A stretch of DNA of 21,197 nt from a virus, in IMG/VR virus record IMGVR_UViG_3300047476_000733, positions 1 through 21,197 of that record, one strand, 5' to 3'. Below, one piece after another: positions 4,356 through 21,197 of the stretch (position 1 is the stretch's first letter; every line of letters begins with the position of its first letter). Position numbers and translations under genes: made by a program. The notes under the pieces are model-generated. The model was not told the DNA's origin. It did not search any database and saw only the letters and a program-made list of their open reading frames with translations.

Positions 4356-5288
4356 TTATACCTTCATCAGCTTAGCAACAAGCTCGCCAAGTTGCTTGAC
4401 AGCTCGTGCATGATCATGGTAAGACTTAGTTTTGGGATCAATGCGATTTACGTTGCTTCGGATAGTTTCCAACTCAGCCATTACATTGTTAACAGTCAGA
4501 ACGTTCTGAGTCATAGCAACCGGAGCCAATTTGTGTCGCAGAATGTTGCTGATACCATCGCGCACTTCTTTTTCCATTGCTTGTGCTTCTTTCAGCGAAC
4601 CAAAGATACGCACTTGACCTTCTTTTGCACCCAAAACATCATCGTTAAACATGTAACTGCCGTTTACTTGTGCGTAACGAATGTTGCTATGGGTAGCATT
4701 GTTAAAAGTAGCCTCAGTGTAAAACAGTTTAGCTCGGTTGAATTCGTCAAGTGCGATTGCGCTCAAGTTTACGCGGAACGCACCACGACCACCAAAGCCT
4801 ACATTACCAAACTGAAACGGAGTTTCGATAAACTGACTACTAGTGTCAACCGCAGTACCAACTACAGTAATCTCTACTGACTCCAAAGTAGTAACACTGT
4901 CAGCACGAACAGCAACATAGCTGTTCAACAGTGCTTCCAACTTTTTGTATTCAAACTCTTGGTCAAGGTCAGGGAAGATAAGTTCATCTGCATCTTCATT
5001 GTAATAAGCTTCAGCCAAGGCAGATACTTTGCTAGCAAGTTGGTTGCGCTCAAAAACAGAAACGATTTCAGTAGCACCGTTGCGTGAAGAAGTGTAATGA
5101 AGAGTTTCACCTGCTACAGTGACTACACGCTTGATACTGTCGAGGGATTCTACGATAACTTGCTGATTCCAGCTAACTTGGGTGCGAACACCTGAAATTT
5201 CGTAAGTACCCTGATACAGTTCTACAACGAACAGACCGTTGTCCAGTTTAACTGCTTGATTTTGCTTAAGATCACTAAAAAGTTTCAC
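4356..5288 (-). CDS. Unknown 310-aa protein, GTG start
   Basis: A soluble 310-residue protein I cannot assign. The first 75 residues are beta-rich (LFVVELYQGTYEI; QQVIVES), the middle has a Gly-rich stretch (QFGNVGFGGRGAFR) after a strand-rich segment, and the last 80 residues are helical (EAQAMEKEVRDGISNILRH and on). The frame runs back to a TTG at 5342, but that start overlaps the -35/-10 region of a strong promoter and has no Shine-Dalgarno. The GTG at 5288 has AGGAG 9 nt upstream and lies downstream of the predicted transcription start, so I chose it. First gene of an early-type unit; probably abundant, given promoter quality. Confidence 0.85.
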   Translation of the reverse strand: MKLFSDLKQNQAVKLDNGLFVVELYQGTYEISGVRTQVSWNQQVIVESLDSIKRVVTVAGETLHYTSSRNGATEIVSVFERNQLASKVSALAEAYYNEDADELIFPDLDQEFEYKKLEALLNSYVAVRADSVTTLESVEITVVGTAVDTSSQFIETPFQFGNVGFGGRGAFRVNLSAIALDEFNRAKLFYTEATFNNATHSNIRYAQVNGSYMFNDDVLGAKEGQVRIFGSLKEAQAMEKEVRDGISNILRHKLAPVAMTQNVLTVNNVMAELETIRSNVNRIDPKTKSYHDHARAVKQLGELVAKLMKV

Positions 5289-5297
5289 TATTTGTTG

Positions 5298-5302
5298 CTC
5301 CT
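5298..5302 (-). promoter_or_regulatory. Shine-Dalgarno AGGAG that sets the GTG start
   Basis: AGGAG on the minus strand, 9 nt before the GTG at 5288. It decides the start of the 310-aa protein over the TTG at 5342. Confidence 0.65.
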
Positions 5303-5321
5303 GTTCGTTGACTATAAGAAT

Positions 5322-5349
5322 AGTATAGCACAATATACCCAAATGTCAA
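5322..5349 (-). promoter_or_regulatory. Sigma70 promoter, copy A of a duplicated module
   Basis: Minus strand: TTGACA (5349-5344), 16-nt spacer, TATACT (5327-5322), with TGC before the -10 (extended -10). The start would be near 5315. The 28-nt core matches the promoter at 10010-10037 at 22 positions, and both have the same 20-nt element upstream. Confidence 0.8.
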
Positions 5350-5371
5350 GCCTTTGAGCAAAAATAAAATA

Positions 5372-5391
5372 TGAATTAAATCAATGACTTA
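5372..5391 (-). repeat. 20-nt upstream element, copy A
   Basis: TAAGTCATTGATTTAATTCA on the minus strand, identical to 10049-10068. It lies 22 nt upstream of the -35 box and 2 nt after the stop of the DEDDh exonuclease gene. The part TGATTTAATTCA is a near-palindrome (10 of 12 positions), so it could be a regulator site. Confidence 0.7.
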
Positions 5392-5393
5392 CG

Positions 5394-5822
5394 TTAAGGG
5401 TAAAACAAATTACTCTCAATATCAGCTTCATACAAGGCTCTAGCGTCTTCCAAGGCATTGTGTGGAATCTTGCTATCTTTAGCACTCAAGTCCCTGCGTA
5501 TTTCACAAGTAAAGCTGGGAATGTTCATCATTGCACCTGGTGCAATGATAACTTGCTCACAAAAGTGTTTAATATCTTCAGGCCAATCTGCAACCAAGTG
5601 AATAGAATCAAAATAGTTTAAAAACCCAAACAACTTCATTTTAAAGATATACAGAGGCACTGGTTCTTTGTTCAGAATAGGCATAACATTTTGTGCTACC
5701 CAGGCACCAGGGTTAGCACATTCTAGCACTTCATAAAACTCAGTACCATCTTCAGCCACAAGTGCCATAGAAATTAGCGCACCTTTGAACTCGTTAAACT
5801 CAGTGTCAATATAAATCTTCAT
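5394..5822 (-). CDS. DEDDh 3'-5' exonuclease (Rv2179c-like)
   Basis: 142 aa with a minimal RNase H-fold exonuclease pattern: Asp6 and Glu8 in YIDTEFNEF (ExoI), Asp79 in LVADWPED (ExoII), and His121 with Asp126 in PHNALEDA (ExoIII, HxxxxD, the DEDDh subtype). Two Mg ions held by these residues would hydrolyse nucleotides from a 3' end. The opening DTEF and the small size resemble the Rv2179c-like exoribonuclease family rather than proofreading domains. The substrate (RNA or DNA) is not shown by sequence. AGGA in the end of the 70-aa gene is its Shine-Dalgarno. Last gene of the long unit starting near 9991. Confidence 0.88.
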   Translation of the reverse strand: MKIYIDTEFNEFKGALISMALVAEDGTEFYEVLECANPGAWVAQNVMPILNKEPVPLYIFKMKLFGFLNYFDSIHLVADWPEDIKHFCEQVIIAPGAMMNIPSFTCEIRRDLSAKDSKIPHNALEDARALYEADIESNLFYP

Positions 5823-5824
5823 TC

Positions 5825-6037
5825 TTAATCCTGTGTGTTACAAGTAACTTCATAGGGCGGAGTAGGATACATATTAGGCGTTAATGTTCTTGTACCTGGC
5901 GGGTAATTTAAAGTTGTGCTTGTTTTGTTCAAAGCTTGACCAAGAGCAGTATATAAATTCTCAGCTTGTTCTTTTGTAAGATCAAGCGAATAGCCGTCAA
6001 TCTCTACTTTAATTGTTGTAATTACTGAAATACTCAT
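5825..6037 (-). CDS. Hypothetical protein, 70 aa
   Basis: The N-terminal 40 residues form a strand pair followed by a helix (DLTKEQAENLYTALGQAL), an EAxxLYxxL pattern seen in many small phage proteins. The C-terminal 30 residues are Pro/Thr-rich and likely disordered (YPPGTRTLTPNMYPTPP). No function recognised. The start overlaps the zinc-finger gene's stop as ATGA. Confidence 0.75.
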   Translation of the reverse strand: MSISVITTIKVEIDGYSLDLTKEQAENLYTALGQALNKTSTTLNYPPGTRTLTPNMYPTPPYEVTCNTQD

Positions 6038-6222
6038 GGTTGATATGGCTCCACTGTAATTGTTTTTGTCTTCTTCATTCTACCAGATCCTTTACATACT
6101 CTACAATCTTCTCTTGTATAGTCGTAAATACCTTTATGATAATCTATTAACGTACCCTTTTCTTTTGTTCCTTCGCCGCCGCAGCTTTTGCATACGATAA
6201 TTTTAACTTTAGCCACATTCAT
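6034..6222 (-). CDS. DnaJ-type zinc-finger mini-protein, 62 aa
   Basis: Two CxxCxGxG elements, CKSCGGEG (11-18) and CRVCKGSG (40-47), sit 28 residues apart and would form a single four-Cys zinc module like one half of the DnaJ Cys-rich domain. No J-domain or other part of DnaJ is present. Stand-alone modules like this are common in phages and host genomes; binding to unfolded protein or to RNA has been suggested for relatives, but nothing in this sequence decides. Its start overlaps the end of the 94-aa gene by 14 nt. Confidence 0.85.
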   Translation of the reverse strand: MNVAKVKIIVCKSCGGEGTKEKGTLIDYHKGIYDYTREDCRVCKGSGRMKKTKTITVEPYQP

Positions 6223-6493
6223 TCTCCACTTGTGTTATCCATCTATTAACACAGTCAACTAATATGTTTTTCTGTGTAATTTCTTCAAATCCTAACGGTG
6301 ACCAATCATCTGTTTCTAACATAGTTTTAACTGTGTTGTAGTCTAGCACAGGGGTATTGTCATATCCTGCTAGCCACATAGCCAAATGCTGATCTTTTCT
6401 TTTGTTGGATTCGTCCCCTCTCATACTGCACCAAAAGATATACCAATTGCTTAGTTCTCCATCATATGTGGAGCTCCATCTAATATAACTCAT
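6209..6493 (-). CDS. Hypothetical protein, 94 aa
   Basis: 94 residues, rich in Trp (seven) and acidic residues, with the start MSYIRWSSTYDGELSNWYIFW. I do not recognise it. The frame extends to a TTG at 6508, but the ATG at 6493 overlaps the stop of the 55-aa membrane protein (ATGA) and has GGGAG 8 nt upstream, so I chose it. Trp-rich helices without membrane length suggest a compact interaction domain. Confidence 0.78.
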   Translation of the reverse strand: MSYIRWSSTYDGELSNWYIFWCSMRGDESNKRKDQHLAMWLAGYDNTPVLDYNTVKTMLETDDWSPLGFEEITQKNILVDCVNRWITQVENECG

Positions 6494-6657
6494 TCTTTTT
6501 TCTCCCAATCTCCTAGTAAAATCGTAGTTGCAATAACAATGCCACTAAACATATAGACTAACACAGGCACAAAGCCCTGCCAAATAGATTGGTTAACAAT
6601 AAAAAATGTTAACAGCAAACATAAAGTGGCTATTGATAGTCTAATGGTTTTGTTCAA
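6490..6657 (-). CDS. Small two-span membrane protein, 55 aa, TTG start
   Basis: Found by reading the 6494-6653 gap. The frame from TTG at 6657 to TGA at 6490 encodes 55 residues with two hydrophobic spans (about residues 6-22 and 27-48) and a charged tail (GDWEKKE), the size of a small holin-like or membrane-modulating protein. TTG overlaps the stop of the 83-aa gene (TTGA), a TGA is in frame just upstream, and the stop overlaps the next ATG (ATGA): both junctions support a real gene. The Shine-Dalgarno is poor (AAAGAG). Holin is a possibility only; no lysis genes are adjacent. Confidence 0.6.
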   Translation of the reverse strand: MNKTIRLSIATLCLLLTFFIVNQSIWQGFVPVLVYMFSGIVIATTILLGDWEKKE

Positions 6658-6905
6658 ATTTCATGACTCTTTAGTTTAATCCACATGAACTCTTTTAGTT
6701 CGTCTTCAGTTTCTAGCCGTGAAATGCAACCACTAAGTCTATCCTTTACTACTCTTATACCATAAGAATCTTCTTTCCAAACCATACTTGCCAACTGAAG
6801 GTATCCACGCGAATATTCAGATTCGTTTTCTACATCCTCATAGAAATATTCATCACCACTTTTAGTATGCTTGGGATCAATTTTGTAATAAAGTGTGTAG
6901 CTCAT
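6654..6905 (-). CDS. Hypothetical protein, 83 aa
   Basis: 83 residues, tyrosine-rich and acidic (DEYFYEDVENESEYSRGY), with a helical C-terminus (ETEDELKEFMWIKLK). No family recognised. AAGG lies just before the GTATAAATG junction with the Cys/His-rich gene upstream, whose stop directly precedes the ATG. It is coupled by TTGA to the small membrane protein. Confidence 0.76.
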   Translation of the reverse strand: MSYTLYYKIDPKHTKSGDEYFYEDVENESEYSRGYLQLASMVWKEDSYGIRVVKDRLSGCISRLETEDELKEFMWIKLKSHEI

Positions 6906-7163
6906 TTATACCTTAAGTTTTAATGCTAACAGTTCATTGTAAATATTTCTATATTCCTGGGGCAATTTGTTCTTTGTTTCTAAATGATGGTAATAACCAT
7001 ACAACCAACTTAAGTAGTCTTTAGCTGTGCCTGGGTCTTCCTGGCATATTTCACATTCGTATTCAGCTTCTTTGTCGCCATAGAATACAGAACAATGAAT
7101 ATCATCGTCATACTTGCACCCATGACGCTTGCAACAATGTCTAGTGTGAATATCACCTTTCAT
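6906..7163 (-). CDS. Cys/His-rich hypothetical protein, 85 aa
   Basis: The first 40 residues carry HCCKRHGCK (9-17), Cys24 and ECEIC (36-40), giving seven Cys and several His: enough for one or two zinc sites. The remainder is helical and aromatic (YLSWLYGYYHHLETK). From memory, a CCKxHGCKYGD pattern occurs in other phage hypotheticals, without known function. A TTG at 7190 would extend the N-terminus by nine residues inside the previous gene; I prefer the ATG at 7163, one nt after the previous stop. Confidence 0.76.
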   Translation of the reverse strand: MKGDIHTRHCCKRHGCKYDDDIHCSVFYGDKEAEYECEICQEDPGTAKDYLSWLYGYYHHLETKNKLPQEYRNIYNELLALKLKV

Positions 7164-7164
7164 T

Positions 7165-7416
7165 TTAAAGTCTTTTAATTTCCGTTTCAATCAACAACAG
7201 CACAGCGGTTTTCACTTCAATAGTGTCATTTTCTAGTACATTCTTTAGCTTATTTAAAAACTCTTTACGTTCTAGATTTTCAAAATAATATCTCGCAGCC
7301 TGAACACTGCATCCTGTTTCTTCACGCAACGCTTTAACATCTGCGACAGTGTACTTTCTGAAAGGCATTAACCCGGTTTTTTTAAGGTGTTCAACTGTGT
7401 ACTTTTTTCTACTCAT
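7165..7416 (-). CDS. Hypothetical protein with UBA/TS-N-like helix pair, 83 aa
   Basis: Residues about 19-45 (KYTVADVKALREETGCSV and on) resemble the N-terminal UBA-like domain of elongation factor Ts, where VKxLRExTGxxxxxxxxAL forms a three-helix bundle. The family link is my inference from the pattern. The remaining residues are helical. I placed the start at ATG 7416, which overlaps the newly found 54-aa gene's stop by 8 nt; an ATG at 7440 would give eight more residues and a 32-nt overlap. Neither start has a clear Shine-Dalgarno. Confidence 0.72.
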   Translation of the reverse strand: MSRKKYTVEHLKKTGLMPFRKYTVADVKALREETGCSVQAARYYFENLERKEFLNKLKNVLENDTIEVKTAVLLLIETEIKRL

Positions 7417-7573
7417 TAGACTGTTTTGCTCGTTGTTCATAATTGCGCTTTAAAAACTCTTGATAGTCAAAAGCTTGTTGGCGCAAACGGTTACGCGATC
7501 TAGCACTTCTTTCTTGAAGTTTTAGATCGGTTGCAGTTGGCTTTTTAAAAAAGTTAATCAGTTTTTCTCGCAT
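7409..7573 (-). CDS. Small basic protein, 54 aa
   Basis: Found by reading the 7441-7553 gap. ATG at 7573 to TAG at 7409 encodes 54 highly charged residues (KLQERSARSRNRLRQQ), predicted as one long helix, with many Arg and Lys and no Cys or hydrophobic span. It might bind nucleic acid or a partner protein, which is inference. It overlaps the end of the 168-aa gene by 20 nt and the next start by 8 nt, normal for this genome. The reading frame is the only one open across the gap. Confidence 0.65.
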   Translation of the reverse strand: MREKLINFFKKPTATDLKLQERSARSRNRLRQQAFDYQEFLKRNYEQRAKQSNE

Positions 7574-8060
7574 GTTTCTCTTCAAATTCTTTAATAGAGT
7601 TTTCTACTGCTTGAATCCAATTCTTAGCAGCTTGTGGTTTTAGTATAATTTCATGTTCTTGTTTGTTAGCACCAGTGAACAAAATACTAGCAGCTTGCTT
7701 AACGCGATCCCAAAAACTTCTAGGGAATTTGTTATACATAGTCATATAGAATCTAACACTGATATCTGGCATATCGTCAAATATTCTTTCTACTTCAATT
7801 ATGGTATCTACGGCATGATCGTGACTGTAACAATCACACTCAATACGATAGCATACCCTATCACCGAAATCTTGTATTTTGGCAACACCCATTGCTGGTT
7901 TTTCTGCGTTCATGTTGTTAGAACTCACTTTAAACTTTTCTCCGGTAGAAAGTTGGATAATACTTTCTTCTTTAGTAGAATTTAAAAATTCTTTCAGTTG
8001 TTTTTTGCCCTGCTGATCGTTTAGTACTTTATCAGCGTTCTTTCCTTTTAGTGCTTTCAT
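7554..8060 (-). CDS. Conserved-type hypothetical protein, 168 aa
   Basis: The N-terminal 35 residues are charged and helical. The centre has CYRIECDCYSHDH (about 70-82), then a run of strands with VRFYMTM, then FWDRVKQAASILFTG and an EHEIILKP strand, ending in a helix. The order (strand, CxCxSH, acidic strand, WxRxKxAxxILFTG, strand) is one I recall from many small phage proteins of unknown function, usually about 90 aa; the extra N-terminal portion here is unusual. Cys and His might bind a metal. The start is coupled by ATGA to the 81-aa gene. Confidence 0.8.
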   Translation of the reverse strand: MKALKGKNADKVLNDQQGKKQLKEFLNSTKEESIIQLSTGEKFKVSSNNMNAEKPAMGVAKIQDFGDRVCYRIECDCYSHDHAVDTIIEVERIFDDMPDISVRFYMTMYNKFPRSFWDRVKQAASILFTGANKQEHEIILKPQAAKNWIQAVENSIKEFEEKHARKTD

Positions 8061-8302
8061 TCTTCTCTCACTATTTGTTTTATCTTGTTAAACGCCGAAT
8101 CTATTCTTGCTTGCTGTTGTTCTTCAGTTAGTTCACCATTGCCATAACGGTGTGCATAGCTCCACGCACATATGGCCCAAATGACTTCTTGCATCTTTTC
8201 TTGGTTCATTGTAATAGCAGCATGTGTGTTAATGTGATGAAACACACGCCTAAAGACTTCATTTTCTTTTTCCATCTGTTGCCATTTAGTAAGTTCGTCC
8301 AT
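8057..8302 (-). CDS. Hypothetical protein, 81 aa
   Basis: 81 residues, almost entirely helical (WQQMEKENEVFRRVFHHIN; MQEVIWAICAWSYAHRYG; EEQQQARIDSAFNKIKQ). No family recognised. The frame can start at TTG 8314, but ATG 8302, 2 nt after the stop of the 244-aa gene, is preferred. It ends in an ATGA junction with the 168-aa gene. Confidence 0.78.
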   Translation of the reverse strand: MDELTKWQQMEKENEVFRRVFHHINTHAAITMNQEKMQEVIWAICAWSYAHRYGNGELTEEQQQARIDSAFNKIKQIVREE

Positions 8303-8304
8303 GA

Positions 8305-9039
8305 TCAATCCCAAAGTGACCTGTAATATTTCCCAAACAGTCTCAAACCATTTTGAATACGGTCATTTACTTGTTTGATACCTTCATGGTCGATGGCAAA
8401 AGTATCGTTTTCGCCTTTTACCATTTCATACAACCCGTCTTCGCGTTTTACTGTGTGGGTGTCGTGCTCACCAGAGTAAAATTCATTTTCCCAATCATCG
8501 TCTACAAGCTTTTCAAAAGCCCAAATCATTTCGTCAAGTGCATAGTCCCAACGCTTAAAATGATTATCGTCGGTATCATACTCGTTTTCTTTAGGGGCGG
8601 CTGCTGTACTTTTTAGATGATCAGGTACGTCTTCGTCATCAACAAAAGGGGCGCCATGTGTACTTGTTCTTAGTTGTTTTAGTACAGGCAAAATAATCAT
8701 GCTTAGTGTATGCTCAGCATTCCAAGTATCCCAAGGATCAACTTGAATCTTGACTACACGCTCCCCGCGCACTTTACTGATCAATTCAAGTGTATTACAA
8801 ACCAGTTTAGCAAACCAAGTTTGTTTGCGGCCTTTGCTACTAAACAAAGGTCTCGTTTCACCAACTTGGGCTTCAGGTTCTACTGAACCAAATGCTAACC
8901 ACTCACCAAAGTCATGAATCCACTCTGGCTTACGTTTAATACCATATTCATCAGGTACCTCTTTCGCCCAAAAGCAAAGAAGTTCTGCTAACTGATATGG
9001 ACCAAAGTGGCTTTTGTATTTGTCAATTCTTACTTTCAT
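8305..9039 (-). CDS. Conserved-type phage hypothetical protein, 244 aa
   Basis: A soluble, acidic protein rich in Trp, Asp and His. The central stretch VKIQVDPWDTWNAEHTLS, followed by KQLRTSTHGAPFVDDEDVP and a DEMIWAFEKLVDDDWE helix, matches a pattern I recall from conserved hypothetical proteins of tailed phages; no function is known to me. DDEDVP and the His/Asp clusters could bind a metal, but this is speculation. The start ATG overlaps the stop of the 221-aa gene (ATGA), so the two are likely translated together. Confidence 0.85.
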   Translation of the reverse strand: MKVRIDKYKSHFGPYQLAELLCFWAKEVPDEYGIKRKPEWIHDFGEWLAFGSVEPEAQVGETRPLFSSKGRKQTWFAKLVCNTLELISKVRGERVVKIQVDPWDTWNAEHTLSMIILPVLKQLRTSTHGAPFVDDEDVPDHLKSTAAAPKENEYDTDDNHFKRWDYALDEMIWAFEKLVDDDWENEFYSGEHDTHTVKREDGLYEMVKGENDTFAIDHEGIKQVNDRIQNGLRLFGKYYRSLWD

Positions 9040-9701
9040 TTAATTCCTGTTCTTACATTACTTAGTCTAGTAGTTTCGTGCTTGGTATAGTCATTAATAA
9101 AATGCTGTTTAACCATAGCAGTAGCAGTTACTACCTTACCAGGATCAATGATTCGCTTGTTTTTAGTAGAATAAGTGATCATTTTTTTATCATCAGTAAT
9201 AGCAGTTACATACCATCTTTCCCATTTATCTGAGTAGTATGAGTTTATAATCTTAAAATTAACTTGCACACTGTCGCCTTGAATGCCTACATACCCATCA
9301 CACTCTCTTAATTGTCTATTTCGGTCATCTTTTATCTGTTCTCTCACAACAGCTTGAGGTGCTGAAGCAAGGAATGCGATGTTGTTGATAGTAATTTTTA
9401 AATCGTCGTTACTAGCCAAGTTGATCAGCTTTTTGATATAATCGTGTGTTTTATCTTCAGCAAGTATTTTAAAAATCATACCCTTTAGATAGTTGCGAAC
9501 TTCTTCACCGTCTTTAATGCTTTGTTCACTGATTAGATCAGGGTTGACTGCATAAAACTGAATTAAGTCTCGGTTGGCTTTCTTGCCCTCATGATCTTCT
9601 GAAAAAGTAAGGTCTTCGGGTTTTACGTAACCATTATTAGTGCTGTATGCTTGACACGCAGCAGCCCAAATAATATCAACTGGAACATCAGGTAGGTTCA
9701 T
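9036..9701 (-). CDS. Hypothetical protein with C-terminal OB-fold-like domain, 221 aa
   Basis: Residues 1-115 are helical (MNLPDVPVDIIWAAACQAY and on). Residues about 135-221 show the strand order GYVG..GDSVQVNFKII, WYVTAITDDKKMITYST, GKVVTATAMVKQH and TRLSNVR: the same order as the small OB-like domain that often ends phage and plasmid replication proteins, with VKxH and TxLxxVR as closing features. Binding to single-stranded nucleic acid is an inference from this resemblance. It starts within the 53-aa gene (14-nt overlap). Confidence 0.8.
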   Translation of the reverse strand: MNLPDVPVDIIWAAACQAYSTNNGYVKPEDLTFSEDHEGKKANRDLIQFYAVNPDLISEQSIKDGEEVRNYLKGMIFKILAEDKTHDYIKKLINLASNDDLKITINNIAFLASAPQAVVREQIKDDRNRQLRECDGYVGIQGDSVQVNFKIINSYYSDKWERWYVTAITDDKKMITYSTKNKRIIDPGKVVTATAMVKQHFINDYTKHETTRLSNVRTGIK

Positions 9702-9849
9702 TTAGTTCATCCAGAACTCTTTTAGCTTCTTGCTTGGAAACAGCAGACATAAGCCTAAGTGCTTGATAAAGCTCTTTATCAGAGTTGGGCTCTTTGATTT
9801 CTCGAAGAGCGGATTCCAAAACACGGATAATACGTTCATTTACCATCAT
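9688..9849 (-). CDS. Small helical protein, 53 aa
   Basis: Found by reading the 9702-9850 gap. ATG at 9849 to TGA at 9688; a second ATG follows at once. GAGGTG at 8 nt is a strong Shine-Dalgarno. The protein is charged and helical (ERIIRVLESALREIKE; SAVSKQEAKRVLDELN). No family recognised. It overlaps the 51-aa gene by 14 nt and the 221-aa gene by 14 nt. Confidence 0.7.
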   Translation of the reverse strand: MMVNERIIRVLESALREIKEPNSDKELYQALRLMSAVSKQEAKRVLDELNEPT

Positions 9850-9991
9850 GGTCTTCACCTCGTGATTTAAGCTTGACTTTGCTTTCTCTACGCAATGCTT
9901 TGGTTGACTTACCGTGTGCTACTGATTGCTTGTTAGAGCGGATCATAGCAAGCACAACATGATTTCTGGGTTTCATTTTCTTGTCACTCAT
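9836..9991 (-). CDS. Small basic protein, 51 aa
   Basis: ATG at 9991 to TGA at 9836. It is strongly basic: PRNHVVLAMIRSNKQSVAHG (residues 8-27) is followed by KSTKALRRESKVKLKSRG. From memory, short basic proteins with PRNxVxLAxxxRxxxxxHxKxxKAxRRxxK occur in many tailed phages with no known role. It is the first gene after the promoter at 10010-10037, with a leader of only about a dozen nt and no clear Shine-Dalgarno, which is odd for a lead gene. Confidence 0.72.
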   Translation of the reverse strand: MSDKKMKPRNHVVLAMIRSNKQSVAHGKSTKALRRESKVKLKSRGEDHDGK

Positions 9992-10009
9992 AGTCTAATA
10001 TATATGCTT

Positions 10010-10037
10010 ATTATAGCAAAAATTGCCCATATGTCAA
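10010..10037 (-). promoter_or_regulatory. Perfect-consensus sigma70 promoter, copy B of a duplicated module
   Basis: Minus strand: TTGACA (10037-10032), 16-nt spacer, TATAAT (10015-10010), with TGC before the -10. Start near 10003. It would drive the long unit from the 51-aa gene down to the DEDDh exonuclease. Confidence 0.82.
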
Positions 10038-10048
10038 GAAAAATAACT

Positions 10049-10068
10049 TGAATTAAATCAATGACTTA
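10049..10068 (-). repeat. 20-nt upstream element, copy B
   Basis: Identical to 5372-5391. It overlaps the last codons and the stop of the 58-aa membrane protein gene and ends 11 nt before the -35 box, one helical turn nearer than in copy A. Confidence 0.7.
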
Positions 10069-10234
10069 AATCATCTTGTTCGGCAATGATGTTATTTGCA
10101 ATAAGTTGAACTATGCCACCTGGTATTACCAATAGAAGGAACCAAGGACTAACAGTAACAGCTAGTTTTGCGATAAAGAGTATCGCAATTAATTCATAAA
10201 AGCTATATCGGGCTGTAAAGAAAAACTTCAACAT
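10058..10234 (-). CDS. Small membrane protein, 58 aa
   Basis: Found by reading the 10069-10287 gap. ATG at 10234 to TGA at 10058. A short basic N-terminus (MLKFFFTARY) leads into two hydrophobic spans (about residues 12-28 and 30-49) and an acidic tail (EQDDLSH), so both ends are probably cytoplasmic. GACAGG is a close-spaced, weak Shine-Dalgarno. It has its own promoter (10263-10291) and its stop lies within the 20-nt repeat. Function unknown. Confidence 0.65.
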   Translation of the reverse strand: MLKFFFTARYSFYELIAILFIAKLAVTVSPWFLLLVIPGGIVQLIANNIIAEQDDLSH

Positions 10235-10262
10235 AAACCTGTCTTTGTAGTGTGTTTATAAG

Positions 10263-10291
10263 ATAATACTACTATTTTATCAGTTTGTCAA
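10263..10291 (-). promoter_or_regulatory. Sigma70-type promoter for the 58-aa membrane gene
   Basis: Minus strand: TTGACA (10291-10286), 17-nt spacer, TATTAT (10268-10263; 5/6). The -35 box contains the stop codon of the 136-aa gene. Start near 10256, about 22 nt before the ATG. Confidence 0.7.
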
Positions 10292-10698
10292 GTGTTTGTT
10301 GCGTCTAAGTATTCTTGCAAATTTCCATACAAAGTCATCCACATTGCTATTTTGTCATCGTAAAGTATGATCTGATTTCCCTCTTCTGTTTTTAGCTTGG
10401 GCATTGATATGTAAAAGGGACATTTTATCTTTTTACTCAAAGACAAAGTGAAAGTGTTGGGATTATTGGCTACAGTAGATAAGTCAGTTTTGTTTGAAAA
10501 TAAGGGAAATTTATAGTGTGCTATGTTAGCTTCTGTAAAGGCTTGATAACCGTCGTGTGTTAATCGTAAACCTGGACCACTTCTACCGCCCATCCACCAA
10601 TGAAAAACTAATTTTTCAATAGTAATACTACGATACTTACTGTATTGAGGAAGTTCATTAAATACGGCTTCAGTAATTTCTAACTTAGTTTTACTCAT
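10288..10698 (-). CDS. Conserved-type phage hypothetical protein, 136 aa
   Basis: The pattern VFHWWMGGRSGPGLRLT (residues 31-47), then KIKCPFYIS, then a late KIAMWMTLYGNLQEYL, is one I recall from many small proteins of tailed phages: FHWW, GLRLTxxG, a KCPYYI strand and a TLYGDLxxYL end. No function is known to me. It has no Cys cluster and no membrane span. The start overlaps the 99-aa gene by 8 nt. The stop lies inside the next promoter. Confidence 0.84.
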   Translation of the reverse strand: MSKTKLEITEAVFNELPQYSKYRSITIEKLVFHWWMGGRSGPGLRLTHDGYQAFTEANIAHYKFPLFSNKTDLSTVANNPNTFTLSLSKKIKCPFYISMPKLKTEEGNQIILYDDKIAMWMTLYGNLQEYLDATNT

Positions 10699-13207: not shown

Positions 13208-13719
13208 CTTACTTCGGATCGACCATCGCCAATGTTTTTAGTTTGTATTACTCGCATTTGGGTACGATTATCAGGATCAGCTTGATCTTGTTCATACATT
13301 TCTAATACCACATTTCTACACACTTGTGTGAACCAACGATCCACTATATCAGCGTCTGTATCTTCTGCTCTAATTTTGTAACCAGCTTTAGTTAAATTTA
13401 TAACAAACTTATCATTCCAGTCAAGTTCAAACGCGCCATTGTTCATGTTATTAGGATCGATATCCATGCTAATAACTGCTATGTATGGTTCATTAGCAGC
13501 AGTTGCTTGTTCTTTTGCACTTAGCGTAGGTTCTGGTTTCTTTTTAGCAGTGCGCTTCTTTTTAGTGGTACCTTGACCAGGAGGTGCTTTTGGTCTAGCG
13601 GTTTTTGGTTTAGCTTTAGAAGACATAGCTCCTCCACGTGTACCACCTTCTGTTAAAGGTTTAGATTCTTCAACAGGTGCTTCATCTTTCTTAAATAGAT
13701 TTTTCAGTTTATTAAACAT
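13204..13719 (-). CDS. Lys/Pro-rich conserved-type hypothetical protein, 171 aa
   Basis: Residues 1-30 are charged, residues 33-66 are a low-complexity Lys/Pro/Ala linker (KAKPKTARPKAPPG), and residues 68-171 are a compact domain with SAKEQATAANEPYIAVI, NGAFELDWNDKFV and ADIVDRWF, ending in SEVS. From memory, this domain (KEQAT..GEPYV, GAFELDWN, VDRWF) recurs in marine T4-like phages without known function. The frame extends into the UVDE gene, but AAGGAG 7 nt before ATG 13719 fixes the start. A second strong Shine-Dalgarno lies before Met32 (13626). Confidence 0.86.
   Translation of the reverse strand: MFNKLKNLFKKDEAPVEESKPLTEGGTRGGAMSSKAKPKTARPKAPPGQGTTKKKRTAKKKPEPTLSAKEQATAANEPYIAVISMDIDPNNMNNGAFELDWNDKFVINLTKAGYKIRAEDTDADIVDRWFTQVCRNVVLEMYEQDQADPDNRTQMRVIQTKNIGDGRSEVS
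13629..13635 (-). promoter_or_regulatory. Internal Shine-Dalgarno GGAGGAG before Met32
   Basis: GGAGGAG lies just upstream of the in-frame ATG at 13626. The bases also encode Gly-Gly-Ala codons, so the match may be accidental, but it is stronger than most ribosome binding sites in this window. Confidence 0.4.
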
Positions 13720-14740
13720 TAGTTTTCTCCTTAATGTATGTATCGTATAGCGCAAAGCTGGCAAGGTTTTTTGCCTTGCTTTCGCACATTGTATCAGCCC
13801 AATCATTGTGTGACATAGCCCAATCATTTACTTGCTTGTTCCAGTAATAATCGGAATGAGCACGAAGGTGTTGCTTTTTGTATCCAGCTTTGATCAAAGT
13901 TGTCAAGTCGGGCATGGTATTTGTACAATGACCAACTAAACAATCTTCACGCGAAACACTGTAATGATAGACTGGGCGGACACCGCGCCAAGAGTCAATT
14001 ACTCGCTTGATGCGATCATCCGTAGCTTCAATATATTCGCCCGTAGCCACCCAATGATGATGTATATCCAGTACTAGTGCAACATGATCAGCAAGTTCAA
14101 GTGAATCATCCAAGCCCCAAGTCATTTCATCATTCTCGATAGTGATCATGTTTCTTGCTTCAGGTGACAAACGAGGCAAAACGTCAATGATACCTTGAGG
14201 ACCGCGTCTGCCTGAAATATGTACGTTAATTTTAAAGTCTTGAAACTGTTTACCATATCCCATCATGCGAGCCATGTCAACGTGATACTCGAATTCTTTA
14301 ATAGAGTTTTCTACGATCTGTTCAGTTTCTGAAGCTAGAACTGTGAATTGCCCTGGGTGCATGGAAAGACGAACGTTGTTTTCCCGTGCCACAGTGCCGA
14401 TTCTGGCAAACAGTTCTTCCATGCGTTTTACTACATCTGGCTGTTTGTAAAAGTATTGCCAAGATTCGTGAGTGTATGCTGAAAGTATGTCCGATGATAG
14501 CCTAACCATTCGCAATTCTGGAGCAAGTTTGGCAACTCGCCTAACTAAGTTTTCTGTTCTTTTGATATTAGTTTCCATCAGCTCCCAAAGCTTGCGCTCG
14601 GCCGTTGGCTTAGTTTGGCGATTTAGAAATGCAATAGTAGTTGGGCTAGTGTTGAGGTCAGAAACTGACTCTACAAGGCCCTTTTTGTTGATTTCGGACC
14701 ATTTACATGCAAAGCCAATTTTCTTAGTAATTTCAGTCAT
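13712..14740 (-). CDS. uvdE: UV-damage endonuclease (UVDE/UvsE)
   Basis: 342 aa, close to the bacterial family's length. UVDE nicks DNA 5' of UV photoproducts and other lesions in a single step, starting alternative excision repair. The TIM-barrel metal-site motifs are present in order: MHPGQF (127-132), NVHISG (172-177), IENDE (201-205), LDIHHHW (224-230) and AHSDYYW (294-300). The N-terminus starts directly with the first barrel strand (IGFACKW). T4 uses the unrelated glycosylase DenV for this job, so this phage takes a different route, together with its own ligase and FEN-type exonuclease. It lies downstream of a likely promoter at 14783-14809. Confidence 0.95.
   Translation of the reverse strand: MTEITKKIGFACKWSEINKKGLVESVSDLNTSPTTIAFLNRQTKPTAERKLWELMETNIKRTENLVRRVAKLAPELRMVRLSSDILSAYTHESWQYFYKQPDVVKRMEELFARIGTVARENNVRLSMHPGQFTVLASETEQIVENSIKEFEYHVDMARMMGYGKQFQDFKINVHISGRRGPQGIIDVLPRLSPEARNMITIENDEMTWGLDDSLELADHVALVLDIHHHWVATGEYIEATDDRIKRVIDSWRGVRPVYHYSVSREDCLVGHCTNTMPDLTTLIKAGYKKQHLRAHSDYYWNKQVNDWAMSHNDWADTMCESKAKNLASFALYDTYIKEKTNV
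13727..13732 (-). promoter_or_regulatory. Shine-Dalgarno AAGGAG that sets the 171-aa start
   Basis: AAGGAG on the minus strand, 7 nt before ATG 13719, within the last codons of the UV-damage endonuclease gene. It decides the start against longer options at 13827. Confidence 0.75.
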
Positions 14741-15647: not shown

Positions 15648-15955
15648 TCTTTCTTCTTAAATATATCAGTCATTGGTTGAACACTTACGATATCTTGCGC
15701 TAAAATAAAACTAAAGTGGTCTGCTGAATCGTAGGTTAATTTCCAAATTAAATGTTGGTGGTAATCATGCCAATGTGTTTCTGTAACTGGTAACCCTGGA
15801 CCTGTGTAAGTAGCTGTACCTTTGTACCCTTTCTTTAACCAAATTATTTTTTTAGATATTCTACAACGGTGCGGTAAAATAGCAAATCTTTCTTTCCAAA
15901 CTGCTTTTCGTAAAAACACCCAATCTCCCGTAAAGTCTCCGTCTAATCCTCTCAC
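15644..15955 (-). CDS. Conserved-type hypothetical protein, 103 aa, GTG start
   Basis: A basic, Trp-rich protein with LPHRCRISKKIIWLKKGYKG, TYTGPGLPVTETHWHDYH and HLIWKLT. The pattern (P-x-R-C-x-x-S-G/K-K-x-IWLK..Y.G, TGPG.P, W, LIW) is one I recall from hypothetical proteins of many phages; the role is unknown. GTG at 15955 shares a base with the QueE stop (TAGTG), giving translational coupling. The His/Cys content is not enough for a clear metal site. Confidence 0.8.
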   Translation of the reverse strand: MRGLDGDFTGDWVFLRKAVWKERFAILPHRCRISKKIIWLKKGYKGTATYTGPGLPVTETHWHDYHQHLIWKLTYDSADHFSFILAQDIVSVQPMTDIFKKKE

Positions 15956-16794
15956 TACGTACCCCAGGAATTTCCAAAGAGAGGGATATGAAGTCTGTCG
16001 CTGTATCTTAATCCATGCGTCATAGCCAATTCAGCTACTCGTCTATTATTCATAGCATAAACACTTTCTACGCCACCTATAGGCATCAAGTAAACAGGAC
16101 CTTTAAATCCTTCTTTTCTATACAGTTCAGTTACTTCTATAGCTTCCATAGCATCTTCTTCAGTTGCTACTACAAACTTTAAATAAGTATAACCTACTTG
16201 TTGATAATCTACTACGATTTCAGGAATAATAGCATCTTCACGTTTTTCACCTGAACAGCTTAATTTAGGACTTACTGAAAACGTAACTTCTCTATTCTTA
16301 TGTCCCCACTCAAATCTCAAGTAACCACCGAACTCTTTATGAAGAGGTTGTGTACCATTAGTTTCAAATGTAATTTCTTTTAAGTTTTTCATTTTAGCGT
16401 GATTTAACAAATCAGGATAAGCACGTTGCCATCCCAACAGTGGCTCACCACCTGTGATTACCAAATGCTCGTCACGCCATTCTTTAAATGGCAAAAGGTC
16501 TACAATAGCATCTGCAATTGCATCAGTAGTAAGTTTAGGTGACAAGTGTTTAAAGTTTACATCCCAACTTGCGTAACTGTCGCAACCAGTTGTTACTAAA
16601 GGTAAGTCGTTATAGTTCTTATAACTGTCTGCTGCAATCAAATTTCGTTCGTTGCTAGTTTCACCTTTAGGCATACCAAATCCTGAACAAGTAAAGTTAC
16701 ACCCAAATGTGCGAAGAAACACACTAGGCACACCCATATATCTACCTTCACCTTGCACTGAGTAAAATAGTTCACTGATTTTTATTTTTGACAT
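15955..16794 (-). CDS. queE: 7-carboxy-7-deazaguanine synthase (QueE), phage type
   Basis: 279 aa, longer than host QueE (210-250). This radical-SAM enzyme rearranges 6-carboxytetrahydropterin to 7-carboxy-7-deazaguanine, the step before QueC in preQ0 synthesis. The start has the QueE signature FYSVQGEGRYMGVPSVFLR (residues 10-28). The 4Fe-4S cysteines are Cys32 and Cys36 in FGCNFTC and, by alignment of the WCDS/TGCDSYASWD segment, Cys71. This gives CX3C-X34-C instead of CX3CX2C: a 32-residue insertion sits in the cluster loop. ITGGEPLLGW (113-122), the SAM-binding GGEP motif, and SPK later in the protein are intact. From memory, marine phage QueE proteins share this insertion. Overlaps the 153-aa gene by 23 nt. 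Confidence 0.93.
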   Translation of the reverse strand: MSKIKISELFYSVQGEGRYMGVPSVFLRTFGCNFTCSGFGMPKGETSNERNLIAADSYKNYNDLPLVTTGCDSYASWDVNFKHLSPKLTTDAIADAIVDLLPFKEWRDEHLVITGGEPLLGWQRAYPDLLNHAKMKNLKEITFETNGTQPLHKEFGGYLRFEWGHKNREVTFSVSPKLSCSGEKREDAIIPEIVVDYQQVGYTYLKFVVATEEDAMEAIEVTELYRKEGFKGPVYLMPIGGVESVYAMNNRRVAELAMTHGLRYSDRLHIPLFGNSWGT

Positions 16795-17233
16795 TCTTTT
16801 CTCTTTTTGATTTCTTTGGGTTTTCTAGTGGGGTACACGATAACTTACTATCACACAGCCCATATCTAGTAGTTTCTGTTATTATCTCATAACCATTATA
16901 AACTACAACCTTTTCGGTAGTTTCTGTTTCTAAAAACTTTTTAAAAGCTATAAGTGTGTCCCATTTTAATTTTTTGGGTACATACATTATGCGTATCTCA
17001 ATAAAAACATGGTGTTCGTTAAACTTCAACCTATGTACAACTCTCATAACGTTTGGTTCCAAGTATTCTTCTATTTCGTAGTTTCCGGGATATTTTTCTT
17101 TGTACTTGTTAATACTAGCACCTTCATCAAAATTAATTCTATGCAACTCTTTTAAATATTGAGGTAAAGACTGAAACTCTTTTCCAAAGACTTCGTGTTT
17201 AGCATAGATATAAGTATCACTATCGCGTTTCAT
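16772..17233 (-). CDS. Unknown protein inside the deazaguanine cluster, 153 aa
   Basis: 153 residues with no recognised family: mixed strands and helices (YEIEEYLEPNVMRVVHRL; HHVFIEIRIMYV; KFLETETTEKVVVYNGYEI), then Cys in RYGLCDSKLSC and a very basic tail (PKKSKREKNVKNKNQ). I chose ATG 17233, which overlaps the phosphoribosyltransferase stop (ATGA); a TTG at 17269 would add 12 residues. Because it lies between the phosphoribosyltransferase and QueE and overlaps both, it is probably expressed with them, but nothing in the sequence links it to the pathway chemically. The basic tail could bind nucleic acid. Confidence 0.75.
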   Translation of the reverse strand: MKRDSDTYIYAKHEVFGKEFQSLPQYLKELHRINFDEGASINKYKEKYPGNYEIEEYLEPNVMRVVHRLKFNEHHVFIEIRIMYVPKKLKWDTLIAFKKFLETETTEKVVVYNGYEIITETTRYGLCDSKLSCTPLENPKKSKREKNVKNKNQ

Positions 17234-17778
17234 TTCCACCAATTTTCCCAGGGAAATTCTATCCAACAATCTTTGTCAGCTTTGTTTACTTCTCGTGAAG
17301 AATAATCTACCTGTTTAAAACTACTAGATTCGTTGTTTACCAAAACAGCAAACTTAACATTATGATGCCAAACTGAATTCCAAGCATGTTGTTCGTTTGG
17401 AAAACAACTTGATTCCCAATCTTTTTTAATCCATTTGATAGTTTCGCCAGTATCATTGATATCATCTACGATCAAGATATTCTTTCTACGTGATACGTCC
17501 CAACGAGACATTTCAGTTCGTTGTACTTCAGGTGATGAATACCCAAAAGCATCTTCGGGCATCCAAGTATTACACTCTTGTTCCCCGTGGTCTCTTAAAC
17601 TAACTCTAAGAGTTTCCATGGGAACGTTGTAATATTGACTGATCAGTATAGCAGGAAGCAACCCACCGCGGGTAATTCCAACAACATAGTCAGGTTTATA
17701 CCCGGCGAGTGTCATTTGCCTAACGATATCCATAGTCATTTTTTTTACATCTAGTGCTGATAGTTTTACTATGTTCAT
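17230..17778 (-). CDS. Purine-type phosphoribosyltransferase
   Basis: 182 aa, type I fold. It would transfer phosphoribose from PRPP to a base, most likely a 6-oxopurine. Motifs: VGITRGGLLPA (33-43), the PRPP-binding ILIVDDINDTGET (101-113) and a late IEFPWEN (173-179), the PWE ending common in xanthine/guanine enzymes. The frame runs back to 17817, but ATG 17778 has GAAGGA close upstream and lies 1 nt after the QueD stop. A salvage enzyme beside GMP reductase and FolE suggests control of the guanine nucleotide supply; an activity on deazapurine bases cannot be excluded. The base specificity is not decided by sequence. Confidence 0.88.
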   Translation of the reverse strand: MNIVKLSALDVKKMTMDIVRQMTLAGYKPDYVVGITRGGLLPAILISQYYNVPMETLRVSLRDHGEQECNTWMPEDAFGYSSPEVQRTEMSRWDVSRRKNILIVDDINDTGETIKWIKKDWESSCFPNEQHAWNSVWHHNVKFAVLVNNESSSFKQVDYSSREVNKADKDCWIEFPWENWWK

Positions 17779-17779
17779 A

Positions 17780-18244
17780 TTATCCTTCATAAATTGCTGA
17801 ATTAGCATCATGTTCAAATACTTCTACACTCTTAACACACACTGTAGTGTTTAAAAGAGTTCCTGCTTTTTCGCCTTCGTCTAAAATTTGTGTCATTTTT
17901 CTAAAAGCCATTTCAGCAAATCGTTCACAACCAACTGCTGGAACGATTCGCAAATCAGCTACATGCTGGGGTAAATTTTTAAACAGCTCAAGTTCTGGAT
18001 CGTCTTCGGCTATCAATAAAGTGTGATCAAACATGTATTCTAACCACTGCTTAAATTCTTTAAGACCACCAAAGTCCATAACCCAGTTTCTTTCATCCAA
18101 GCTATCACATTCAAAGATGATTTTAACACCTATTGAATACCCGTGCAGTAAAGAACAATGACTGTGTGTAGAACGCCACTGTCTAAAGCAGCAACTTAGT
18201 CCGCGGTCGGTATTGTATGTCTTTGTGCTGTAAAATTTACCCAT
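17780..18244 (-). CDS. queD: 6-carboxy-5,6,7,8-tetrahydropterin synthase (QueD), phage type
   Basis: 154 aa, longer than host QueD (about 120). It turns the FolE product dihydroneopterin triphosphate into 6-carboxytetrahydropterin. Features: THSHCSLLHGYS (26-37) with the likely catalytic Cys30, VMDFGGLKEFKQWL (55-68), FDHTLL (72-77) with the Asp73/His74 pair, and a late ESVEVFEH-like strand with conserved Glu (VKSVEVFEH). The canonical zinc histidines are changed: the early AAH is CCF (18-20) and HGH is HGY (34-36), while His27 and His29 are new candidates. From memory, this variant is common in phages. Overlaps folE by 8 nt; SD not obvious. Confidence 0.92.
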   Translation of the reverse strand: MGKFYSTKTYNTDRGLSCCFRQWRSTHSHCSLLHGYSIGVKIIFECDSLDERNWVMDFGGLKEFKQWLEYMFDHTLLIAEDDPELELFKNLPQHVADLRIVPAVGCERFAEMAFRKMTQILDEGEKAGTLLNTTVCVKSVEVFEHDANSAIYEG

Positions 18245-18929
18245 GATTCTTGCCCATTCTTGCTATGCTTAAAAACTCTGCTCTAGCAGCAGGATCAGTT
18301 TTGAAACCACCACCTAGCTTACAAGTTACTGTTGACGATCCTGTGTCTTCGACACCTCTTGCAGCTACGCAATAGTGTCTAGCATCGATCATAACAGCAA
18401 CGTTATCAGTTTCTAAGATATAAGAAAGGGCATGAAATACTTGTTCAGTAAGTCTTTCTTGAATTTGCGGACGCTTAGCAAAGTATTCTACGATACGGTT
18501 GATTTTACTCAAACCCAACACTTTTGTATTAGGTATATAAGCTACTGTTGCTAAACCATCGATAGTCACTCCATGGTGTTCGCAGTTTGACATAACTATT
18601 ATATTACGTTCAACCACCATTTCATCATAGTGCATTTTGTTTTCTACAGTAGTGCATTTTGGGAAGTTCTCTTCTTTAAGACCAAAGTAGATTTCGTTTA
18701 CGTACATTTTCGCCATTCTGTTTGGGGTTTCTGCAAGACTGTCATCACTAAGGTCCATGCCAAGTGTTTTCCATATTACAGTAAATGCTTCTTCTAGAAT
18801 GTCAATTTTCTTTTTATTTTCTACTGCCAACATATCATCTATAATAGGTGTTTCTACGCCCATCTTGATTAAATATTCTCTTACTTTTTTTCCTAGACTA
18901 GGATCAGTTTTTGTTTTATCGTAGCTCAT
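18237..18929 (-). CDS. folE: GTP cyclohydrolase I (FolE)
   Basis: 230 aa, full length. It opens the imidazole ring of GTP to give dihydroneopterin triphosphate, the first step of both folate and 7-deazaguanine synthesis. Motifs: LAETPNRMAKMY (65-76), SNCEHHG (114-120) with zinc ligands Cys116 and His119 and catalytic His118, GLSKINRIV (139-147), and HYCVAARGVEDTGSS (185-199) with zinc ligand Cys187. AAGGAA is its Shine-Dalgarno. It is separated from GMP reductase by the two homing-type genes. Next to QueD and QueE it most likely serves the deazaguanine pathway. Confidence 0.96.
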   Translation of the reverse strand: MSYDKTKTDPSLGKKVREYLIKMGVETPIIDDMLAVENKKKIDILEEAFTVIWKTLGMDLSDDSLAETPNRMAKMYVNEIYFGLKEENFPKCTTVENKMHYDEMVVERNIIVMSNCEHHGVTIDGLATVAYIPNTKVLGLSKINRIVEYFAKRPQIQERLTEQVFHALSYILETDNVAVMIDARHYCVAARGVEDTGSSTVTCKLGGGFKTDPAARAEFLSIARMGKNHG

Positions 18930-18938
18930 GTTTTTTCC

Positions 18939-19781
18939 TTATATTTGTTTGTGATTTATATATGTAGGTTTTGTCGAACTCCATATAAATCCATATTGAT
19001 ATTTCTTATCTGGATTACTATCTATGTCCGTCGATGTTCTATACTTTCCTTTTAGTTCACCTTCAAAGATGATACGTTTTCCTGTAGGTTTATACTTTCT
19101 ACCGTACTGAATAGTATAGTTCATTTCTTTTAATTTGTCAATTTCGTTTGGAAACAAAAACTTCTCTTCTCCATCAACAATACACCAACATTTCCCTTTA
19201 ACCGCAGATTTACCATACATCCCATTTGTCGAACCTTTCCTTGACATATTCTGCTGCTTGCCCACTCTGGTTTTTATAGCGGACGTATTTACTATATTAT
19301 CTTCGCCGTATATCTCAACAAACAAATGAAGTTGTGTGGTTTTTATTATAATATGTTCTTTAAGAAGTTTGTTATAGATGGTTATAGTATTTTTTCTATT
19401 ACCTTCTTGGTTGGGCCTCTTCTGAAAGTTTTTATTTGCTTTTGTACACCAGCTTGTAGTACGGATATTAGTTAATCCGTAGTATGCTTTTAATTGTTTT
19501 ATAAGTGTTTCTTCTATTCTAACAGCATCATCTTCAGTAAGTTCATCGAATAACTTTATTATTATGGGGTATACACCAAGTTCTATAATTTTTCGAATTT
19601 TTCGAATTTTATGAGTGGGTTTTGTGTTTCGTGTGGGCCTAGCCTCTTTTATATGGGCAAACAACCGTTCACCCTTACCTTTTCCTATATAAAAAGGTTT
19701 GTATAAAAAAGAAATCTTATCAGTAGAAAACTGCCCTGGTTCCAATGGGTCTAAATAAGCATAAACATAGTACTGTGACAT
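18939..19781 (-). CDS. GIY-YIG homing endonuclease
   Basis: 280 aa. The N-terminal nuclease domain has YVYAYLDP (5-12, the GIY strand), PFYIGKGKGER (29-39, the YIG strand with conserved Arg) and the catalytic Glu in RIEETLIKQL (89-98). A NUMOD3-like SRKGSTNGMYGK (180-191) and a C-terminal part with repeated GK..GR..Y motifs would read the target site. Such enzymes cut intronless alleles of a flanking gene and spread by recombination. It has no visible intron around it, so it is a free-standing gene. Two AAGGAG elements lie before the ATG, one under a hairpin (19786-19819), and a late-promoter-like box lies at 19845-19852. An internal sigma70-like promoter is at 19113-19141. Confidence 0.9.
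   Translation of the reverse strand: MSQYYVYAYLDPLEPGQFSTDKISFLYKPFYIGKGKGERLFAHIKEARPTRNTKPTHKIRKIRKIIELGVYPIIIKLFDELTEDDAVRIEETLIKQLKAYYGLTNIRTTSWCTKANKNFQKRPNQEGNRKNTITIYNKLLKEHIIIKTTQLHLFVEIYGEDNIVNTSAIKTRVGKQQNMSRKGSTNGMYGKSAVKGKCWCIVDGEEKFLFPNEIDKLKEMNYTIQYGRKYKPTGKRIIFEGELKGKYRTSTDIDSNPDKKYQYGFIWSSTKPTYINHKQI
19113..19141 (-). promoter_or_regulatory. Possible promoter inside the GIY-YIG gene
   Basis: Minus strand: TTGACA (19141-19136), 17-nt spacer, TATACT (19118-19113; 5/6). It is in coding sequence about 180 nt upstream of folE and could drive folE, queD and the genes beyond. Confidence 0.4.
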
Positions 19782-19824: not shown

Positions 19825-20298
19825 CTATCTTGTTTTGACAGTACTATTTATCAGTTTCCAACCTTTGTATTTTTTTATTCTGTTATTGACTAGTGAACTG
19901 ACCCCGTCTCTGCTTAAATTGTATTTTTCTCTAAACTGCCACATCATGCCCTCAAATTTTTCTAGGGTTAGTGTATGCACGAAAGTATACTGAGTATCAG
20001 GTCCGTTATGATATTCTTCATAAATCCCAGAACGATTAACTAAAACCCATCCTTTGATTGATTTGTGTTTTCCACTAATTATACCATACAAGTTTCCTTG
20101 GTTTATGTTATACTTTTTTCTAAATGAATAACATGTACCTGTAAACTCCTCATTAGTATCAAATTTCTTAAAAGTGCAAATTTCTCTCGCAGCACATAGC
20201 TTAGCTTGTTCTTTATGAACATGTTCTTGTTTATCGTCGGTGATTTTATCTTTTATCAAGTTTGCAATCAGTGTTTTGTAATGCTGATTTTTGTCCAT
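19825..20298 (-). CDS. Homing-endonuclease-like DNA-binding protein, tandem KGW modules, no nuclease core
   Basis: 157 aa. The first 30 residues ([15 protein letters not shown]) look like the start of phage HNH homing endonucleases, but no HNH/HHI catalytic cluster follows. The rest is two copies of a module of about 46 residues: repeat 1 (about 42-87) and repeat 2 (about 104-150) share FxG.....FRxKYN......, then K.(I/Y)KGW.L. Modules of this kind recognise DNA in NUMOD/IENR-type homing enzymes. I read it as an endonuclease relative that lost its nuclease domain, or a DNA-binding partner of the GIY-YIG enzyme next to it. The start shares a base with the GMP reductase stop (TAATG). Confidence 0.75.
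   Translation of the reverse strand: MDKNQHYKTLIANLIKDKITDDKQEHVHKEQAKLCAAREICTFKKFDTNEEFTGTCYSFRKKYNINQGNLYGIISGKHKSIKGWVLVNRSGIYEEYHNGPDTQYTFVHTLTLEKFEGMMWQFREKYNLSRDGVSSLVNNRIKKYKGWKLINSTVKTR
19845..19852 (-). promoter_or_regulatory. T4-type late promoter candidate
   Basis: GATAAATA on the minus strand matches the T4 late -10 TATAAATA at 7 of 8 positions and lies in the last codons of the 157-aa gene. A start near 19838 would place the stem intact in the late transcript, so whether it opens is unclear. Confidence 0.35.
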
Positions 20299-21197
20299 TA
20301 TTTTCTCAAATAAACATCATTAAACTGTTTGTTCACTCTAACAAAAGTCGTACACTTTGACAAGTCTTTTAGGCTCTTTGCTCCCACATAAGAACATGTA
20401 CTACGAATTCCACCTAGAATATCGCGTACTGTGTTATCAACTGAACCTTTGTATGGAACTTTAACAGTTCTACCTTCTGAACTACGATATTCTGCTACAC
20501 CGCCGTGATGTTTTTCCATAGCAGTTTCACTACTCATACCGTAAAACTGAACAAACTTTTTGCGTTCTTCAAGCTTACCCAAACGCTCACCGGTATCTGG
20601 ATCAATAATCATTTGATTAGTTTCGTATACTTCTTCAATGATATCTCCGCCGCCTTGGTCGTGCCCTGCAAGCATACCGCCAAGCATTACAAAGTCAGCA
20701 CCACCACCAAATGCTTTTGCTATATCACCAGGACAAGTACAGCCACCATCAGCAATGATATGACCGCCCAAACCATGTGCTGCATCCGCGCATTCGATAA
20801 TGGCTGATAGTTGAGGATATCCAACACCCGTTTGAATGCGAGTAGTGCAAACACTACCAGGACCAATACCCACTTTAACAATGTCAGCTCCACGTAATAT
20901 TAACTCCTGTGTCATATCTGCTGTTACTACGTTGCCAGCAATGATAGTTTTAGTTGGATACAGCTTTCTAACTTTAGCAACAAAGTCACCAAAGTGCTCA
21001 GAGTATCCATTAGCGATATCAATACAAATAAACTGAATCATATCAGGATATTGATTAACAATCGTTTGTAGTCTTATAAAATCTCGATCACTTGTACCTG
21101 TACTTATTGCAGTATGACCAGTAAAGAATCGTGTAATGTTATGCTCAAAATCATCCAAGTTATAACTCTTTACCAAGCACGTAATCATTCCATGATT
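20298..21197 (-). CDS. guaC: GMP reductase, partial (N-terminus off window)
   Basis: The frame is open to the right edge; the ATG at 21188 is internal (NHG precede it), and comparison with the family (about 345 aa) suggests roughly 70 residues are missing, including the first part of the barrel. The enzyme reductively deaminates GMP to IMP with NADPH. Features: [14 protein letters not shown] (53-66 from that ATG), IIAGNVVT (82-89), the catalytic loop [13 protein letters not shown] (105-117) with Cys114, [10 protein letters not shown] (121-130), [10 protein letters not shown] (146-155) and [13 protein letters not shown] (215-227), followed by [12 protein letters not shown]. It has a GxxxxGxxKxxER-type extra loop (about 180-210) relative to the human enzyme. 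It matches GMP reductase more closely than IMP dehydrogenase, and no CBS domain is present. Confidence 0.93.

Follow-up and report, generated by a model that had tools for sequence, protein, structure and literature searches.

A sequence element repeated before two phage promoters is predicted to be an IHF site placed in helical phase with the -35 hexamer

What does an identical 20-nt sequence do upstream of two promoters in the same phage? The question arises from the 21,197-base virus record IMGVR_UViG_3300047476_000733, analysed here over positions 1 to 21,197 (hereafter, the window), in which the 20-mer TAAGTCATTGATTTAATTCA (TGAATTAAATCAATGACTTA on the other strand) occurs exactly twice, both times as an exact match on the minus strand, at 5391–5372 (copy A) and 10068–10049 (copy B). 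No further copy was found in the window at up to three mismatches, and in dinucleotide shuffles the 20-mer is expected 0.03 times, with no shuffle containing two copies. The partial palindrome that the initial annotation had seen in the element is a near-dyad, TAAGTCA-T-TGATTTA, in which 12 of the 14 arm positions are symmetric. All genes adjoining the two copies lie on the minus strand, which the initial annotation had not stated. Each element is located at the end of its upstream gene, as had been described: copy A begins 2 nt past the stop codon, and copy B overlaps and encloses the TGA stop of ORF 10234–10058.

A scan for the 20-mer, which the initial annotation had proposed for the whole phage genome, showed that both copies in the window precede sigma70 promoters. 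Promoter A (TTGACA-N16-TATACT; 5349–5322, minus strand) matches the consensus hexamers at 11 of 12 positions and reads into gene 5288–4356, a member of phrog_17099 with unknown function. Promoter B (TTGACA-N16-TATAAT; 10037–10010, minus strand) matches at 12 of 12 and reads into ORF 9991–9836 and then small genes as far as the RNase H-like gene 5822–5394; the two modules therefore open two neighbouring gene runs. On recounting, the annotated features of the two modules all held: the promoter cores are identical at 22 of 28 positions, TG precedes the -10 hexamer in both (extended -10), and the distance from the end of the identical 20-mer to the -35 downstream is 22 nt in A and 11 nt in B, with an intervening stretch that differs between the copies in length and letters. 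Between promoter B and the ATG at 9991 there is a leader of only ~12 nt (10009–9991), in which no ribosome-binding site is clearly recognisable. The only other sigma70 promoter in the window with 12/12 matches, TTGACA-N16-TATAAT at 3541–3514 on the minus strand, reads into ORF 3483–3145.

The consensus for IHF binding is WATCARNNNNTTR, and in strong sites an A-tract lies to its left (PMC8421141, PMC9519438). Read on the plus strand, both copies contain the consensus core AATCAATGACTTA without mismatch, at 5379–5391 in copy A (minus strand, TAAGTCATTGATT) and at 10056–10068 in copy B, with gaps to the -35 of 29 and 18 nt, respectively. The A-tract side of the core faces the promoter at both copies, each with an A/T tract (AAAAATAAAATA at 5360–5371 in copy A and AAAAATAA at 10039–10046 in copy B, both on the plus strand) and with the sigma70 -35 and -10 hexamers (11/12 and 12/12) downstream of the core. 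A third consensus core, TATCAACTAGTTA, lies in reverse orientation at 3563–3551 on the minus strand, with a gap of 9 to the TTGACA at 3541; no A-tract was found at its canonical place. Altogether, the window holds eight perfect cores against 1.87 expected, a number reached in 0 of 100 shuffles, and several of the eight have no obvious promoter. The identity between the two copies spans 20 nt, longer than the IHF consensus requires, which counts against an IHF reading. A promoter-like sequence, TTGACA-N17-TATTAT at 10291–10263, which runs over the stop of the gene before it (10288–10698), has no IHF core upstream.

Based on the sequence match, the A/T tract, and the contexts in which the element is found, it is likely that host IHF binds each copy, bends the DNA, and stimulates the sigma70 promoter. 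Host IHF would bind the AATCAATGACTTA core together with the A/T tract that lies toward the promoter, and the sharp bend made there would bring the polymerase, probably through its alpha C-terminal domains, into contact either with DNA from further upstream or with IHF itself. With site and promoter separated by an integral number of helical turns, the bend would be able to reach the polymerase, and initiation by host RNA polymerase would be raised at the operons starting at 5288 and 9991. The sequences directly show the consensus match, the tract, the promoters, and a phase in common with other phages; from these we infer that IHF binds, that its effect is stimulatory and not repressive, and that alpha is contacted.

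The helical placement was surveyed in viral contigs by searching for the core by itself, in both orientations, ahead of perfect TTGACA-N16–18-TATAAT promoters; a scrambled core was the control, and a separate scan covered short gaps. The counts are samples, taken among the matches listed (120 per scan), and describe the distribution of gaps rather than absolute enrichment. In the orientation of the window copies, 83 dereplicated sites were obtained among the matches listed, with 21 sites at gaps 18–19, seven at 21, 29 at 28–30, and five at 38, the limit of the search. Gaps 18, 19, and 28–30 together account for 50 of the 83 dereplicated sites listed (13.4 expected), the Rayleigh test over periods of 9.5–10.5 gave p<0.0005 for this orientation among the same matches, and stricter dereplication of the matches listed left 22 of 39 sites at the peaks, compared with 6.3 expected. 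Peaks of this kind were absent with the scrambled core, for which no single gap had more than 5 of the 78 sites among the matches listed. Both window copies, which are outside the sample, fall on the main peaks (gaps 29 for A and 18 for B). The initial annotation had argued, from the difference in spacing, that a bound protein would face the same side of the helix at both copies; a phased protein-binding element is now well supported, with peaks ~10 bp apart and one copy on each, and the protein is predicted to be IHF.

The reverse orientation shows peaks at gaps 16–17 and 8–9 (5 and 8 in the short scan) among the matches listed, and the gap of 9 at the third core of the window falls on the preferred 8–9. 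At period 10, this orientation is weakly periodic (p ~0.05), similarly to the scrambled control (p ~0.04); the case for phasing therefore rests on the window-like orientation. If the dyad of the IHF site lies at the W of the consensus (1IHF structure), the two orientations agree, with the dyad ~17–22 and 29–31 bp from the -35 in both.

The flanks of the phased sites, which were no part of the search pattern, are also consistent with IHF. Among the matches listed, 70 phased sites have the orientation of the window copies; past the core, A and T prevail in them at +1 to +5, G and A at +6 to +9, and A and T again (79–93%) at +10 to +17, the expected place of the IHF A-tract. At secondary promoters of the same loci, the core was found 21 times, compared with 1–10 times for seven scrambled cores, and 12 of the 21 lie at dyad distances of 17–22 or 29–31 (loci listed). 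The core is frequent further upstream in these phages too, and an excess of IHF cores at the promoters of loci from the scrambled scan was not found in a conservative test, in which part of the upstream region is fixed; hence the arrangement belongs to some phages and not to all. The feature is restricted to a subset of phages, and within it the same spacing rule recurs across many unrelated uncultured phages.

The exact 19-mer occurs in 25 viral contigs, 22 of which form one distinct phage group with a TTGAC(A/T) promoter ~38 nt downstream of the 19-mer; in the parts compared, this group has only a 5'-3' exonuclease (~27% identity) in common with the window. Copies without promoters, which the initial annotation had set against its own proposal, do exist on two contigs (L001 and L004), but these are GC-rich and a small minority. 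A looser scan placed the element upstream of TTGACA promoters in further unrelated phages. At locus L012 the element again lies right after or over the stop codon of the gene before it. Bacterial genomes gave ten matches, two of them just upstream of sigma54-like -24/-12 sequences: TTGGCACCACCCTTGCT in a Pseudomonas brassicacearum contig (L036) and TTGGCATAGCCTTTGCT in a gammaproteobacterial MAG (L030). The exact sequence was found in one unrelated paper only. A DNA similarity search of window positions 5000–10500 against the phage collection gave no match, and searches with the proteins of two neighbouring genes found no relatives among viral contigs, so that there were no orthologous promoters to align.

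At the protein level, most of the phage matches listed infect Proteobacteria; one of the ligase matches is a Synechococcus phage. The gene at 13712–14740 encodes a UvdE-type UV-damage endonuclease, whose best matches (~47% identity) are in Dickeya and Erwinia jumbo phages. Adjoining genes at 15955–18929 for radical-SAM QueE-like, 6-pyruvoyl tetrahydropterin synthase (QueD-like), and GTP cyclohydrolase I proteins make up a 7-deazaguanine (preQ0) pathway, which suggests that the DNA of the phage contains modified guanines. An ORF with a GIY-YIG domain (18939–19781), possibly a homing endonuclease, separates the GTP cyclohydrolase gene from an IMPDH/GMP-reductase-like gene (20298–21188).

The main rival to IHF is a dimeric regulator, of phage or host, that would recognise TAAGTCA-T-TGATTTA as its operator and activate or repress both promoters. 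The symmetry of the arms and the exact TAAGTCATTGATT in several unrelated phages accord with such an operator, as does the preference for G and T at core positions 3–4 (46 and 51 of the 70 phased sites, among the matches listed). In the phased sites, however, the CA of the left arm is present at about half at each position, and what is kept is an IHF-type half (the right half being fixed by the search) with a one-sided A/T tract. A symmetric site should moreover give equal gaps in both directions about its own centre, whereas the heights of the peaks fit the IHF dyad better, and the copies upstream of sigma54-like promoters fit IHF. We therefore regard a dimeric regulator as unlikely.

The A/T-rich region immediately upstream of the -35 at both promoters raises the question of whether an extra protein is needed, since A/T-rich stretches upstream of the -35 stimulate sigma70 promoters. 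The stretch would then be an UP element bound by the alpha subunit of RNA polymerase, a reading that we consider quite improbable: an UP element is fixed near -40 to -60, whereas the core, together with its own tract, is displaced by full helical turns between gaps 18 and 29, and the TTGAT core is specific when compared with scrambled cores. Recent duplication of one promoter region, with the 20-mer as a remnant lacking its own function, would explain the identity of the 20-mer and the 22 of 28 shared promoter positions, but is very improbable in view of the divergent stretch between element and -35, the helical phasing, and the exact 19-mer before promoters in the 22-contig group, which is related to the window through that one exonuclease in the parts compared. 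A role as terminator or processing site for the preceding transcript, which the initial annotation had considered from the position of the element directly after or over a stop codon (A, B, and also L012), was rejected as scarcely credible, because no terminator (G+C-rich hairpin with a T run) was called at either copy and RNA folding was no better than in shuffles (z, -0.67 and -0.99); that the element goes with promoters downstream of it accounts for its place at gene ends.

IHF binding upstream thus remains the preferred reading, and promoters of this kind, with an IHF site ahead of them, are already known from phages. In phage Mu, IHF regulates early gene levels from Pe, and deletion of the IHF site lowers Pe transcription (PMC3820752). 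Mu Pe, an early promoter, resembles the window promoters in having a site for host IHF on its upstream side: Mu bp 947–959 read TATCAACGCGTTA, followed by TTTACA-N17-TATCTT (hexamers picked by eye). It differs in that the Mu core, as read here, is in reverse orientation with a gap of 33, unlike the window copies with their gaps of 18 and 29, and in that repressor operators are also present at Pe. Lambda pL, described through a 1998 reference in PMC1784095 as a phage sigma70 promoter stimulated by upstream IHF with participation of an UP element, likewise combines a sigma70 phage promoter with an upstream IHF site (predicted in the case of the window). Allowing one mismatch (WATCAA form), no core was found in the lambda record within 130 nt upstream of its -35, and pL was therefore dropped as a positive control; the window sites are nearer to the promoter and closer to consensus. 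IHF is a usual partner of sigma54 promoters, as PMC7962754 also states. The same element before sigma54-like sequences in the two bacterial genomes agrees with that partnership, whereas the window promoters are of the sigma70 type, without need for an enhancer-binding activator. A limited open-access search found no paper on a phase rule across uncultured phages, only papers on IHF in general or on single phages.

If these readings hold, an unexplained repeat becomes a testable promoter rule, stating the positions that an IHF site has to occupy if it is to assist a sigma70 promoter: should IHF act as predicted, a shift of 5 bp should abolish the effect and a shift of 10 bp restore it. The rule is readable from sequence and could aid promoter annotation in uncultured phages. 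As a tentative generalisation, in which we place somewhat less than even confidence, the window copies may represent a common promoter type of proteobacterial phages, in which an extended IHF site (~GTAAGTYATTGATTTWWARGR with an A/T tract), its dyad 19–22, 29–31, or 39 bp from the -35 and in either orientation, has been met independently in many lineages, and phage operons would thus be tied to the IHF levels of the host. The rule also predicts which phages would fare worse in IHF-deficient hosts.
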